Part shown: in pieces, positions 20,475 through 63,852 of the stretch
Layout: every line of letters starts with the position of its first letter
Position numbering within the stretch: position 1 is the first letter of the stretch
Assembly (NCBI GenBank): GCA_902806085.1
Contig: CADCVH010000022.1
Span: 1-64,000, forward strand
Length of the DNA stretch: 64,000 nucleotides
From: an uncultured Rubrobacteraceae bacterium
GTDB taxonomy: Bacteria > Actinomycetota > Rubrobacteria > Rubrobacterales > Rubrobacteraceae
Reading direction: 5' to 3'
Translations under genes and position numbers: made by a program
Notes under the pieces: generated by a model
Seen by the model: the letters and a program-made list of their open reading frames with translations, nothing else
Told to the model about the DNA's origin: nothing
The model's database searches: none

Positions 20475-20491
20475 GGTCGCTCCCTTCGGTC

Positions 20492-20645
20492 GCTTTGAGG
20501 TTCTGGGTTTTGAGGTTTTGCGGAAGGGACGCGACCGCGGCCACGCCGCCATCCTCCAACACCCGGCCGCGACGCCGGGCCAAGGCCACGCACCATACCC
20601 CTAATGCCTCAGAACCTCAAAGCCTCAAAGCCTCAGAACCTTTTT
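20492..20645. repeat. Intergenic inverted-array element, copy A
   Basis: Left arm (20492-20520) is built of TTTGAGG and TTCTGGG-like words; right arm (20607-20645) is the complementary run of AGAACCTC and AAAGCCTC octamers. Between them lie about 85 unique GC-rich bases. The arms can pair imperfectly into a long hairpin. It sits between the lysR start and the small gene at 20746. The 18-mer GTCGCTCCCTTCGGTCGC touches its left edge and also occurs next to copy B. Confidence 0.75.
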
Positions 20646-26536: not shown

Positions 26537-27553
26537 TCACGCGGGCACGTCGAGGACGATCTTGCCGACGCCGGAGCCCTCTTCCATGAGCCCCATCGCC
26601 GCCGGGGCCTCTTCGAGCGGGAAGGTCTCGTTGACGGCCGGGCGCAGGCCGCGCTCGGCGTAGAGGTCAAGCATCGCGCCGAACTCCTCGGGCGTACCCA
26701 TCGCGGTGCCGAGGACCGTAACGTGCTTCAAGAAGATTTTGGGCAACACCAGCTTCTCGACCGGCCCGGCGGTCGCCCCGAAAGAGACGATGCGACCCCC
26801 CGGCTTCGCCAGCGAGAGCAGCGCGTCGAAGGTCGAACCCCCGACCGAATCCACCGACAAGTCAACGGCCCCGGCCATGCCCTTGAGCTCCTTGGACCAG
26901 CCCTCGGAGTTGTAGTTCACGCCGCCCTCGGCGCCGAGCTCCTTCGCGGCCTCGATCTTCTCGTCGTCCCCGCTCGTCACGAAGACCCTCGCCCCGAGCG
27001 CCGACGCGATCTGGACCAGAAAGGTCGCCACCCCGCCCCCAACACCCGGGACCACCACCGTTTCGCCCTCCAGGACCCCTCCGCGCGTAACAAGCGCCCG
27101 GTACGCCGTCAGCCCCGCGAGTGGCACCGCAGCCGCCTCCTCGTGCGAGAGGTGGGAGGGCTTTGGGAAGACGTGATCCGCCGGAACCTTCACGAGCTGC
27201 GCGAAAGTCCCCTCGTCCGGCAACCCCAGGATACGGTACTCCTTCCCCGGCACCGCCGGGTCGTTTCCCCAGAACAGCGCCGGGTTGATGACGACCTCGG
27301 TCCCCTCGTCGGGCCCGTCTGCCCCCTCACCGCGCGACACGACCTCCCCCGAGCCGTCCGACCCGAGCGTGGCGGGCAGCGCCTCGGGCTTCGCCCCGGG
27401 GTACATCCCGCGCGTCACGAACGCGTCCCGCCGGTTGAGCGCCGCCGCGTGGACCTTGACGACGACCTCTCCGGAACCGGGTTCGGGGTCGGGCACGTCT
27501 TCGTAGACGAGGTTCTCCGGACCGCCAAGTTCGTGCAGTCGAATGGCTTTCAA
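26537..27553 (-). CDS. Medium-chain dehydrogenase/reductase (zinc-free quinone-oxidoreductase type)
   Basis: Protein of 338 residues of the MDR family. It has an N-terminal GroES-like domain (HAAALNRRDAFVTRG, LPATLGSDGSGEVV) and a Rossmann domain with VVVPGVGGGVATFLVQIA (the usual nucleotide loop). The zinc-ligand cysteine cluster of alcohol dehydrogenases is absent, so it probably reduces a quinone or enone with NADPH. The TTG start is one base from an 18-bp leader identical to that of the LysR gene. First gene of an MDR-ASCH-GNAT operon. Confidence 0.85.
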   Translation of the reverse strand: MKAIRLHELGGPENLVYEDVPDPEPGSGEVVVKVHAAALNRRDAFVTRGMYPGAKPEALPATLGSDGSGEVVSRGEGADGPDEGTEVVINPALFWGNDPAVPGKEYRILGLPDEGTFAQLVKVPADHVFPKPSHLSHEEAAAVPLAGLTAYRALVTRGGVLEGETVVVPGVGGGVATFLVQIASALGARVFVTSGDDEKIEAAKELGAEGGVNYNSEGWSKELKGMAGAVDLSVDSVGGSTFDALLSLAKPGGRIVSFGATAGPVEKLVLPKIFLKHVTVLGTAMGTPEEFGAMLDLYAERGLRPAVNETFPLEEAPAAMGLMEEGSGVGKIVLDVPA

Positions 27554-27574: not shown

Positions 27575-27749
27575 AAAGGTTTTGAGGCTTTAGGCATTAG
27601 GTTTTGAGGTACCAGCTTAGTACGGATACTCGCCTCGCGCTTCCGGGCAAACAGAGGCGGCCCGCCGCGCCCGGCAACGAACCGGCGCGGCGGGCCGCCT
27701 CCAAAGACCCCTACCTGATGCCTTGAAACCTAGAACCTCAGAGCCTTAG
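27575..27749. repeat. Intergenic inverted-array element, copy B
   Basis: Left arm 27575-27615 has AGGTTTTGAGG, CTTTAGGCATTAGG and GTTTTGAGGTACC words. Right arm 27711-27749 has CTACCTGATGCCTTGAAACC and TAGAACCTCAGAGCC. Both flank a strong GC hairpin listed separately. The right arm starts directly at the acyl-CoA dehydrogenase stop codon, and the left arm ends beside the 18-base leader of the MDR gene. Confidence 0.75.
27654..27701 (-). terminator. Strong 18-bp stem hairpin
   Basis: Perfect stem of 18 bp, GAGGCGGCCCGCCGCGCC with its complement, and a 12-base loop. It stands 45 bp beyond the acyl-CoA dehydrogenase stop on the minus strand. Only a short TGTTTG follows in that direction, so termination may be partial. 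It occupies the unique centre of repeat copy B. Confidence 0.7.
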
Positions 27750-31856: not shown

Positions 31857-31858
<2 letters not shown>

Positions 31859-31950
31859 GTTTTAGGTTCGAGGTTTTAAGGTTCTAGGTATTGGGTGGCT
31901 GAGACAGCGCGGTCAAGCTACAAGCACTTACCTCAAAGCCTAAAACCTTC
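31857..31950. repeat. Intergenic inverted-array element, copy C
   Basis: Left arm 31857-31895 (AGGTTTTAGGTTCGAGG, TTTTAAGGTTCTAGGTATT) begins within the fadN-type stop codon. Right arm 31929-31950 (ACCTCAAAGCCTAAAACC) ends just before the thiolase ribosome binding site. The centre is about 33 bases. A polycistronic transcript would fold this between the two coding regions. Confidence 0.75.
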
Positions 31951-31965
31951 ACGAAGGGAGAATTG

Positions 31966-33144
31966 ATGAACGAAGCGGTTATCGTATCCGGAGCCAGGAC
32001 CGCCGTCGGGCGGGCGCCGCGGGGGACGCTGCGCGGGGTGCATCCGGTCGACCTCGGGGCCTCGGCGATCAGGGAGGCCGTGGGTCGGGCGGAGGGGTTG
32101 GATCCTTCCGACGTCGAGGACGTGATCATGGGGTGCGCGATGCCGGAGGGGACGCAAGGGTACAACATGGCCCGGCTCTCCTCGGTGCGGGCCGGGATGC
32201 CGGATACGGTGCCGGCGCAAACGGTGAACAGGTTCTGCTCCTCTGGGCTTCAGACCATTGCCATGGCGGCGGAGAGGATCATGGTCGGCCACGCGAGCAC
32301 CATAGTCGCGGGCGGCACGGAGCACATGTCCTCGACGCTGCAGATGCCCAACTTCGCGCCCGACCCGGGGCTCGTCGAGACGAACCCGGCGGTGTACATG
32401 GGGATGGGCTTCACCGCCGAGCAGGTCGCCAGGGAGTTCGACGTCTCGCGCGAGGACCAGGACGAGTTCGCCCTGCGCAGCCACACGCGGGCGAAAGAGG
32501 CCGTCGAGTCGGGCAGGTTCGACGGCCAGATCGTGCCTTTGGACGTCGCCTACGACTTCGTGGACGACGACGGACGTCCGCAGCACTTCGAGACGACCTT
32601 CGGGCGCGACGAGGGGCCGCGGGACACCTCCGCCGAGCAACTGGCGAAGCTGAAGCCCGCCTTCCAGCAGGGCGGCACGGTCACGGCCGGGAACGCCTCC
32701 CAGCGGAGCGACGGGGCGGCGGCGGTCGTCGTCATGGAGCGGGGGGAGGCCGAGCGGCGGGGGCTCGCGCCGATGGCGCGGTTCCTCGGGTTCGCGGTAG
32801 GGGGGGTGAGGCCCGAGGTCATGGGGATCGGGCCTAGCGTCGCCATACCCAAGGTGCTGGAGCAGACCGGGCTCTCGCTCGAGGACATAGACCTCATCGA
32901 GTTCAACGAGGCCTTCGCGGCGCAGGTGCTGGCCGTCGTCCGGGAGGTCGGGCTCGACTTGGAGAAGATGAACGTTAACGGCGGGGCCATCGCCCTCGGC
33001 CACCCGATGGGTGCTACGGGCACGAAGCTCACCGTCCAGATCCTGAACGAAATGCAGCGCCGCGGCTCGAAGTACGGCATGGTGACCATGTGCATCGGCG
33101 GCGGGATGGGCGCGGCGGGCATCTTCGAGAACCTGCAGAACTAG
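31966..33144 (+). CDS. Acetyl-CoA acyltransferase (thiolase)
   Basis: Protein of 392 residues. Thiolytic cleavage of 3-ketoacyl-CoA, last step of beta-oxidation. Acyl-carrying Cys in VNRFCSSGLQTIA (about 89), GGTEHMSS, His in NGGAIALGHPMGATG, and catalytic Cys in MVTMCIGGGMGAAGIF. GAAGGGAG stands five bases before ATG 31966; the preceding in-frame TTG is too close. Co-directional with the FadN-type gene, separated by repeat copy C. Confidence 0.94.
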   Translation: MNEAVIVSGARTAVGRAPRGTLRGVHPVDLGASAIREAVGRAEGLDPSDVEDVIMGCAMPEGTQGYNMARLSSVRAGMPDTVPAQTVNRFCSSGLQTIAMAAERIMVGHASTIVAGGTEHMSSTLQMPNFAPDPGLVETNPAVYMGMGFTAEQVAREFDVSREDQDEFALRSHTRAKEAVESGRFDGQIVPLDVAYDFVDDDGRPQHFETTFGRDEGPRDTSAEQLAKLKPAFQQGGTVTAGNASQRSDGAAAVVVMERGEAERRGLAPMARFLGFAVGGVRPEVMGIGPSVAIPKVLEQTGLSLEDIDLIEFNEAFAAQVLAVVREVGLDLEKMNVNGGAIALGHPMGATGTKLTVQILNEMQRRGSKYGMVTMCIGGGMGAAGIFENLQN

Positions 33145-61151: not shown

Positions 61152-61871
61152 TTGGAGGGCAATTTGCGCGTCACGATCTGGAACGAGTTCAGGCACGAGA
61201 GGAACGATGAGGAGGTCGCGAAGATCTACCCGGAGGGCCTGCACGGGGCCCTCGCCAACGCCCTTAGAGGGAGCGGCTTCGACGTGAGAACGGCAACCCT
61301 CGACGAGCCCGAGCACGGGCTGACGGGGGAGGTCCTCGGTTCGACGGACGTGCTCTTGTGGTGGGGCCACATCGCCCACGACGAGGTCTCCGACGAGGTG
61401 GTGGACCGGGTACACGAGCGGGTCATGGGGGGGATGGGCCTGATCGTGCTCCACTCCGGGCACTTCTCCAAGATCTTCAAGCGGCTCATGGGCACCACCT
61501 GCGACCTGAAGTGGCGCCACGACGACACGGAGCGCCTGTGGGTGGTCGCCCCCGGCCACCCCATAGCCGAGGGCATCGGCGAGTATATAGAGCTCGAAGA
61601 GGAGATGTACGGGGAGCACTTCGACGTGCCCGAGCCCGACGAGCTGGTCTTCGTGAGCTGGTTCGGCGGGGGGGAGGTCTTCAGGAGCGGGCTCTGCTAC
61701 CGGCGCGGCTCCGGCCGGGTCTTCTACTTCCGCCCGGGCCACGAGGAGAACCCCTCGTACCACAACCCGGACGTGCTGCGCGTCATAGAGAACGCCGTGC
61801 GCTGGGCCGCCCCGACCCCGGGGGCCGTTCCCGTCTACGGCAACGCGGAGCCGCTGGAAAAGAGGTTCTAG
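61152..61871 (+). CDS. ThuA domain protein (trehalose-utilisation family)
   Basis: Protein of 239 residues, class I glutamine-amidotransferase-like fold. [20 protein letters not shown] at the start, [38 protein letters not shown] (elbow without the amidotransferase Cys), [17 protein letters not shown], and [18 protein letters not shown]. ThuA acts with ThuB in the 3-keto-disaccharide route; its exact reaction is unsettled. TTG start adjoining the previous stop. The stop codon forms part of repeat copy G. Confidence 0.9.
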
Positions 61872-61965
61872 GTTCAAGGTCGCCCGCTTCGCGGGCTTCG
61901 GGGTCCGAGGGGTGGGAAGTCGAGACCCCGTCCCGATGGGCACCCCTAGAACCTAGAGCCTAAAG
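61863..61965. repeat. Intergenic inverted-array element, copy G
   Basis: Left arm AGGTTCTAGGTTCAAGG (61863-61879) includes the ThuA stop codon; right arm CCTAGAACCTAGAGCC (61945-61960). The centre has a GCCCGC-ttc-GCGGGC hairpin (61882-61896). It lies inside the sugar operon, so it may act as an internal processing or termination point. Confidence 0.72.
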
Positions 61966-61979
61966 ACAGGGAGGATCGT

Positions 61980-63089
61980 TTGCAGAACTTGGATTCGAAG
62001 ACTTTGCGCGTCGGGGTTGTCGGCCTCGGCTACGCGGGCGAGCAGCACCTGAAGAACTTCGTGCGAGTGCCGAACGTGGAGGCGGTGGCGCTTGCGGGGC
62101 TGGAGGAGGGGCGGCTGCGGGAGCTCGGCGGGCGTTACGGGGTGCGGAACCTCTACAGGAGTTGGGAGGAGCTCGTCGCCCGCGACGATTTGGACGCGGT
62201 GAGCATCGGGGCGCCGAACCACCTGCACGCGCCCATAGCCATCGCTGCGCTGAAGGGCGGCAAGCACGTCCTCTGCGAGAAGCCGCTGGCGCGGACCGGG
62301 GCCGAGGCGGAGGGGATCGTGCGGGCGGCAAAGGAGGCCGACAGGGCGGTCCACATAGCCTTCACGCAGCGCGAGCGGGGGGACGTGCAGGCGCTCAAGC
62401 GGCACGTCGAGGAGGGGAACCTGGGCAGGATCTACCACGCCAAGGCGACCTGGATGCGCCGCAACGGCATCCCCGGGATGGGCGGCTGGTTCACCAGCAA
62501 GGAGATGGCCGGCGGCGGCCCGCTCATAGACCTCGGGGTGCACATGATCGACATGGCCCTCTACCTGATGGACGAGCCCGAGGTCGAAACCGTGAGCTGC
62601 GCCACCTACGCCGAGCTCGGCCCGCGAGGGCGCGGCGGCCGGACGGACTTCGGGCTCATGCAGGGCGACAGCCCCTACGAGGTCGAGGACCTCGCCACCG
62701 CGTTTATCCGCCTGGCCGGCGGCGCCACGCTCAACCTGGAGGCCGGCTGGGCCGTCTACCGCGAGTCCAGCGACGACTTCGGCGTGACCCTCTACGGCAC
62801 CGACGGCGGCGCGGAGATGAAGGTCAAGAACTACGGCACCCGCGACACCGTCCGCATCTACACCGACGTGGCGGGCGTCCCCGCCGTGGTCACGCCGGAG
62901 ATAGAGCCGCGCGAGGGGCACCTGGCCGTGGTCCGGCGCTTCGTCGAGACCATCCGCAGCGGCGACTGGGCCGGGCAGTTCGGGGAGGACGGCCTGCGCC
63001 GCGCCCGCATCATAGACGCCTGCTACGCCTCCGCGCTCGAGAACCGCGAGGTCTCCCTGACGGACGTCGCCGGCAGAGAAGCCGTGTGA
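61980..63089 (+). CDS. Gfo/Idh/MocA family oxidoreductase (second ThuB-like)
   Basis: Protein of 369 residues. [20 protein letters not shown] nucleotide loop, [20 protein letters not shown] then [70 protein letters not shown], typical of sugar-active members. TTG with GGGAGG five bases upstream. Followed by a ThuA-like gene overlapping by 4 bp, repeating the dehydrogenase-ThuA module of the preceding pair. Confidence 0.9.
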
Positions 63090-63730
63090 AAAGGGCGCTC
63101 TTTGTCTGCGGCGGCTGGGAGGGACACGAGCCAGAGAAGTGCGCGCGCATCTTCACGCCCTTCCTGGAAGACAACGGCTACGGGGCCGAGATCTCGACGA
63201 CCCTCGACTCTTACCTGGACGAGGAGAAGATGCGCGCCCTCGACCTGATAATCCCGATCTGGACGATGGGCACCATCACCGAGGAGCAGGAGGCCGGCCT
63301 CATCGGCGCCGTCGAGGGCGGCGTCGGCCTCGCCGGCTGGCACGGCGGCATGGCCGACTCGTTCCGCGAGAGCATCAACTACCAGTTCATGGTCGGCGGC
63401 CAGTGGGTGGCCCACCCCGGCAACATCATCGACTACGAGGTAAACGTCGTAGGCAACGACGACCCCATAACCGCGGGCCTGCAGGACTTCAAGATGCACT
63501 CCGAGCAGTACTACATGCACGTGGACCCGTCCAACGAGGTCCTGGCGACCACGACCTTCTCCGGCGAGCACGTCCCCTGGATAGAGGGGGCCGTGATCCC
63601 GGTCGTCTGGAAACGCCGGTGGGGCAGAGGCCGCGTCTTCTACTCCTCCCTCGGCCACGTGGCAAAGGACTTCGACGTGCCGGAGGCCAAGACGCTGGTC
63701 GAGCGCGGGATGCTGTGGGCGAGCAAGTAA
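63086..63730 (+). CDS. ThuA-like protein
   Basis: Protein of 214 residues of the ThuA (PF06283) family: [20 protein letters not shown] at the start, [88 protein letters not shown]. It differs clearly from the ThuA protein encoded at 61152, so the two are paralogues with probably different substrates. GTG overlaps the preceding stop. Confidence 0.9.
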
Positions 63731-63737
63731 TAAGCCT

Positions 63738-63830
63738 GTCAGCCGGTCAGTACGCTCCGGCCTTCGGCCCTCGTTCTCAGCTAGTCAGCAAAAAGGAAAA
63801 GCTGACGGGCTGAGATGCTGACCGGCTGAC
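63738..63830. repeat. Inverted-array element of the GTCAGC type
   Basis: Outer arms are a perfect 13-bp inverted repeat, GTCAGCCGGTCAG (63738-63750) and CTGACCGGCTGAC (63818-63830). Inside, CTCAGCTAGTCAGC (63777-63790) and GCTGACGGGCTGAG (63801-63814) pair with two mismatches around AAAAAGGAAAA. The design (short word repeated in one arm, complement in the other) is that of the AGG-type elements but with another word. Confidence 0.8.
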
Positions 63831-63852
63831 AAGCTAAAAAGGAGGTAGCGTC

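Follow-up and report, generated by a model that had tools for sequence, protein, structure and literature searches.

A TCAGC-word hairpin at a gene end of an uncultured Rubrobacteraceae bacterium belongs to a dispersed repeat family whose word differs among relatives at the same sites

The gap between a gene that we take, from its fold family, to be ThuA-domain-like and a Gfo/Idh-type gene of an uncultured Rubrobacteraceae bacterium carries one copy of a dispersed, hairpin-forming intergenic family that is spread across Rubrobacteraceae. The gap lies in a stretch of 64,000 nucleotides (contig CADCVH010000022.1, positions 1 to 64,000; hereafter the window) of a draft genome of 4.4 Mb and 68% GC. 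In each family member, NNTCAGC units form the left arm and complementary GCTGANN units the right arm, with a loop or short centre between them; one of the arms usually includes a GC-rich module. Site and architecture mostly persist between species, the word turns over in both arms, and some orthologous gaps are empty. Placement at gene ends, fixed polarity, retention of array sites from species to species, simultaneous word change in the two arms, and change in unit number were each observed.

The target element (63733–63837), located 3′ of the ThuA-like gene, is made up of 8-bp units, GCTGACNN in the right arm and NNGTCAGC in the left arm, which together form a nested inverted array. It begins 2 nt past the stop codon of this gene and ends right before the probable RBS of the Gfo/Idh-type gene, which is conserved in relatives (Table 1). 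The repeat unit is an octamer, the right arm reading GCTGACGG GCTGAGAT GCTGACCG GCTGACAA GCT, and the left arm is the inverse of the right, broken by the 23-nt non-word module TACGCTCCGGCCTTCGGCCCTCG. The original prediction placed nested inverted repeats of GTCAGC-type words with a perfect 13-bp outer stem at 63738–63830; the repeats are present there and form a strong, non-random fold (−62.4 kcal/mol for the target element; shuffled sequences average −31.2, giving z = −8.5, and none of 200 shuffles folded as well), and the length of the perfect stem was corrected to 14 bp, this being the core of outer arms that pair over 18 nt. The inner arms (63775–63789 and 63801–63815) are 87% complementary. 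The motif GCTGACNNGCTGA, allowing at most one mismatch, has 8 sites in the window, 7 of them inside the target element, against 1.5 expected; the TCAGC word also occurs elsewhere in the window genome. Intrinsic terminator calling returned none at the target element, and Rfam 15 gave no match above gathering score in the window or at the elements searched in G008, a genome of the same genus.

Table 1. Positions in the window of the target element's parts, its neighbouring features and the AGG-type arrays
Feature	Position	Strand	Basis
ThuA-domain-like gene (presumed), directly upstream of the target element	63086..63730	+	ORF; genus orthologues 80-90% identity
Left outer array AGCC TGTCAGCC GGTCAG, partner 63818-63835	63733..63750	+	Inverted repeat, 94% complementary; fold
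GC-rich non-word module TACGCTCCGGCCTTCGGCCCTCG in left arm; own small hairpin; conserved in dispersed copies	63751..63773	+	Fold; nhmmer alignments to unlinked G008 copies; multiple alignment
Left inner array TTCTCAGC TAGTCAGC	63774..63789	+	Inverted repeat
A-rich loop AAAAAGGAAAA	63790..63800	+	Fold; same loop type in dispersed copies
Right array GCTGACGG GCTGAGAT GCTGACCG GCTGACAA GCTAA, 8-bp period	63801..63837	+	Sequence; inverted repeats; word count
Probable RBS AGGAGGT of downstream Gfo/Idh-type gene, just past the target element	63840..63846	+	Sequence only; gene conserved in relatives
AGG-type octamer array TTYTGAGG / CCTCARAR	20485..20642	+	Inverted repeat
AGG-type arms around conserved core (TTAGTACGGAT...)	27579..27745	+	Orthologous arms: TCAGG or TCAGC in relatives
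AGG-type inverted array	31857..31961	+	Relatives: 7-bp or 8-bp TCAGC arrays
AGG-type inverted array AGGTTCT / CCTAGAA, in the gap before that of the target	61863..61961	+	Inverted repeat; AGG homologue in G004

With the target element alone as query, nhmmer returned full-length homologues at unlinked loci of G008, with alignments that span module, loop and arms (best E = 2e-10). An iterated search gave 101 loci in the sequence examined, only a few of them within the 461 kb of the window genome that its own statistics cover (those of G008 cover 0.4–1.2 Mb), and an alignment was built from 34 family loci. The original prediction had proposed a process within the locus rather than a single mobile sequence; a process confined to the locus is not supported, as the target is a full-length member of a family found at many unlinked loci, with module and loop in common. 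The triple-unit pattern GCTGAN{2,3}GCTGAN{2,3}GCTGA, for which reversed-pattern controls were near zero, occurred at 544 places in G008, 208 in G006, 190 in G001, 151 in G034, 35 in G007, and 4 in the window genome, with 0–69 in the remaining relatives. Pairs of GCTGA in G008 were spaced by 7 (93 pairs) or 8 (36 pairs), with about 1 at other spacings; among the multiples, 14 and 16 were present and 15 hardly at all, so the arrays are phase-pure. Members of a long-loop type, to which the G008 copy in the orthologous gap of the target belongs, have an 80-nt centre in common at about 20 loci.

This 80-nt centre is non-palindromic (AGTCGTCTG...GCGGCAAGAAG; ~20 unlinked G008 loci, e.g. L141:1366–1533, minus strand), and it matched nothing in Rfam and showed no clear fold in common; a common RNA fold for it was rejected, with weak consensus and little covariation. 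An element-wide consensus fold was uninformative because the alignment mixes 7- and 8-bp phases. A 12-bp tandem repeat, GCTGACGCGATT (L112:4683–4792), has a phase unrelated to that of the intergenic arrays.

All 81 array pieces in 400 kb of G008 are intergenic. Arrays were held by 19 of 42 convergent gaps, 30 of 159 co-directional gaps, and 2 of 45 divergent gaps, with genes called by a simple script and no standard gene finder. They typically lie 5–30 nt past a stop codon; where the flanking genes are co-directional, most are no more than 30 nt from the stop of the upstream gene. TCAGC stood on the left and GCTGA on the right in 78:0 cases over 1.2 Mb of G008, and the TCAGG word was likewise polarised (11:0); this polarity is not needed for a hairpin and may reflect sequence recognition or common descent. 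A run of four or more T followed 7 of the 268 G008 arrays, and without a U-tract the arrays are therefore not canonical intrinsic terminators.

Comparison of orthologous gaps revealed the same sites in different word states. The target gap contains 8-bp TCAGC arrays in the window genome, G006, G007, and G008, a GAGG/CCTC hairpin in G005, a GC-rich hairpin in G004, and a TCAGG hairpin in G014, which belongs to another genus. Within the genus, TCAGC is likely to have been the ancestral word at this gap, with moderate support from a tree of four neighbouring proteins in which G014 was assumed to be the outgroup. Among 22 gaps orthologous with G008, arrays were present in 8 in the window genome and 10 in G008, 7 of them shared (hypergeometric P = 0.005, uncorrected for gap orientation), and the word differed in 6 of the 7. 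The original prediction that the word changes and the architecture stays thus holds at other gaps, but the target gap keeps TCAGC in four genomes. Relatives with an unstructured gap or a standard terminator had been named as evidence against the prediction: a hairpin is present at the target gap in G004 to G008 and G014, but at the gap 61871/61980 the G006 and G007 orthologues carry no array and no notable structure. The AGG array of the window genome at that gap is shared with G004, whose right arm is expanded, and G008 has TCAGG there.

At the gap 27553/27746, arrays adjoin the conserved sequence TTAGTACGGAT at the same boundary in seven genomes. The word is AGG in the window genome, TCAGG in G004, mixed TCAGG and TCAGC in G008 and G002, and TCAGC in G006, G001, and G007, and the right arm holds matching complements. 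Both arms have switched together at a fixed boundary, with mixed arrays among the states, and the turnover of words within a locus that was originally proposed is borne out here; in almost every orthologue examined, the words of the two arms correspond. At 31858/31966, the word is AGG in the window genome, G005, and G004, TCAGC with 7-bp units in G008 and G002, and TCAGC with 8-bp units in G006 and G007. The gap 33144/33164 holds a one-armed array in G008 and G006 that is absent from the window genome, a possible insertion without clear target-site duplication. The original prediction called the target's word unrelated to the AGG words; it is a different word, but "unrelated" is too strong, since the TCAGG words of relatives differ from TCAGC by one base and are near the AGG words as well, and some arrays mix words.

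In each genome one or two words predominate across many loci as a genome-wide dialect. Triple units of TCAGC/AGGTT/TCAGG numbered 4/55/1 in the window genome, 1/44/38 in G004, 4/14/4 in G005, 208/0/9 in G006, 190/0/1 in G001, 544/5/29 in G008, and 69/13/126 in G011. The target element is a TCAGC relic within an AGG genome. It is very improbable, in our judgement, that such species dialects arise from a lineage-specific enzyme or word-recognising factor that rewrites arrays, in both arms and at many gene ends, into the current word of the genome.

The account that we regard as probable is a dispersed family maintained by in-place slippage and fold-back template switching, with rarer copying between loci. 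Replication slippage inside an arm would change the unit number and the word in place, fold-back template switching between the arms would keep them complementary, and the rarer copying between loci would spread elements together with whichever word is locally common. At gene ends, the cell would tolerate the hairpin or benefit from it as an mRNA 3′-end or gene-boundary structure other than a canonical U-tract terminator. Slippage, which the original prediction had offered as an example, is indicated by dimer-based expansions: a perfectly regular 30-unit array in G008 consists of the 14-bp dimer CTATCAGCGGTCAG repeated 15 times (G008:C1 about 762712–762923) and is probably a recent expansion, and an 8+7-bp dimer array in the window genome is a higher-order repeat of alternating AGGTTTTG-AGGTTCC (G000:C129:7470–7541). 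Identical units stand next to each other less often than chance would give (6 of 126 vs 20 expected), which simple monomer slippage does not predict. Coupling of the arms is evident from the joint word change, with modest added support from shuffled-spacer refolding. In this test the left-arm spacers of short-loop 7-mers fitted their right arms better than any of 60 shuffles did, and spacer complementarity was only modestly above that of shuffled arms, not significantly so in 2 of 4 classes. The refolding replaced a best-offset comparison of spacer lists between the arms, which was merely suggestive (65/1000 and 40/1000). Template switching is described as an established process that homogenises the arms of imperfect inverted repeats (PMC8604942; E. 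coli quasipalindromes, PMC7202029). The word may have travelled between loci by ectopic copying or by transposition.

Transposition of whole hairpins by a transposase, as non-autonomous REPIN- or MITE-like elements, would make each difference in word the replacement of one element by another. Dispersed full-length copies with common non-word parts, bursts of copy number specific to lineages, the fixed polarity, and the one-armed array at 33144/33164 are consistent with such movement. Replacement does not, however, predict what is seen at 27553/27746, where arrays with different words, mixed in two genomes, adjoin the same sequence in seven genomes, and neither a target-site duplication nor an empty site with one was found. 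Matches to Y1 transposase (PF01797) were obtained only in G001, G006, and G034, all among the four genomes with the most TCAGC arrays; the search gave none in the window genome or in G008, the genome of highest copy number, and none of the matches was flanked by arrays. We therefore consider movement of whole hairpins unlikely. A REP/REPIN system with RAYT was likewise rejected, as the Y1 loci are few and unlinked to arrays and at least one is of the IS200/IS605 type with TnpB. A TnpB-like ORF lies beside one Y1 locus, and TnpB-like sequence was seen by eye beside others.

Selection for structure only, with the arrays serving as terminators or mRNA 3′-end stabilisers and the word an accident of hairpin growth, would fit the placement at gene ends, the avoidance of divergent gaps, the strong folding, and the joint change of both arms with the structure kept. 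This seems to us rather unlikely because, besides the missing U-tract, structure alone leaves unexplained a fixed word at hundreds of loci, a fixed 7-/8-bp period and the 78:0 polarity; moreover, in some cases the arms enclose a conserved core that precedes a gene, and the G006 and G007 orthologues at 61871/61980 do without array or notable structure. The constant 5-nt core with variable spacers, the pure 7- or 8-bp phase, the fixed polarity, and the genome dialects would also suit arrays bound by a DNA- or RNA-binding protein that recognises the word and has a specificity varying by lineage. We regard this as quite improbable, given copy numbers from 0 to 544 among close relatives, which would be odd for a required regulatory site, and several words within one genome; no candidate protein was identified. 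Slippage and fold-back template switching within a dispersed family remain the reading that we prefer.

Cyanobacterial STRR are heptanucleotide repeats in intergenic DNA, and classical REPs prefer gene 3′ ends. The GGGNATC degenerate heptamer repeats of Xanthomonas and Nostoc, which among known repeats come nearest to the Rubrobacteraceae arrays, are dispersed arrays of a 7-nt word in which some positions are constant and others vary; they are nearly all intergenic, near the preceding stop codon and rare in divergent gaps, form about 70 convergent inverted pairs per genome, and occupy the same gaps in two species with varying length and sequence (Rehm et al. 2015, PMC4692102). The Rubrobacteraceae arrays resemble them as tandem arrays of 7- or 8-nt units, within the 6–9 nt of such repeats, that are intergenic, near a stop codon, and rare in divergent gaps. 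They differ in that the units are 8 bp in some arrays and 7 bp in others and not based on G runs, the two arms pair into a hairpin, one site can hold different words in different species, and a non-word module and centre are dispersed with them. Judged by the word GCTGACNN, whose core is without any run of three G, they are not members of the GGGNATC family itself, which would require a G-quadruplex-type G-tract word. The TAACTGA repeats of Beggiatoaceae run in direct orientation, in most cases shortly before a start codon, and single-base variants of their word seldom form arrays (MacGregor 2015, PMC4679880). Like these and STRR, the Rubrobacteraceae arrays are tandem arrays of a short word in intergenic DNA, but unlike TAACTGA they are inverted, lie at the 3′ ends of genes, and occur in several related words side by side.

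REP/BIME/REPIN sequences are dispersed intergenic palindromes (e.g. Bertels and Rainey 2011, PMC3116915). The Rubrobacteraceae elements are also dispersed intergenic palindromes at gene 3′ ends, but they are made of short tandem words, have no linked RAYT gene, and change their word in place. Template switching at quasipalindromes, an arm-matching process, fits the joint change of arms; such mutagenesis concerns single imperfect inverted repeats (PMC7202029, PMC8604942), whereas in Rubrobacteraceae it would form part of the turnover of array words. Our literature searches found no report of such repeats in Rubrobacter and no description of in-place two-armed word turnover or of dialects.

In Chloroflexi and other phyla, the gaps that follow ThuA genes contain 7- or 8-bp arrays of other words (AGTAGYC, GGTGAGKG, GAGACGGC, AAGGCGG, and AAGGTKGG), so this kind of short-word array is widespread. 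In Ktedonobacterales, very long near-perfect hairpins without word arrays lie directly 3′ of the same ThuA gene.

Short-word intergenic arrays thus occur in several phyla. The Rubrobacteraceae arrays constitute a lineage-specific repeat family, apparently not described before, whose copies at gene ends number in the hundreds, and as close relatives hold the same hairpin sites in different, even mixed, word states, the route by which one word spreads and displaces another becomes traceable.
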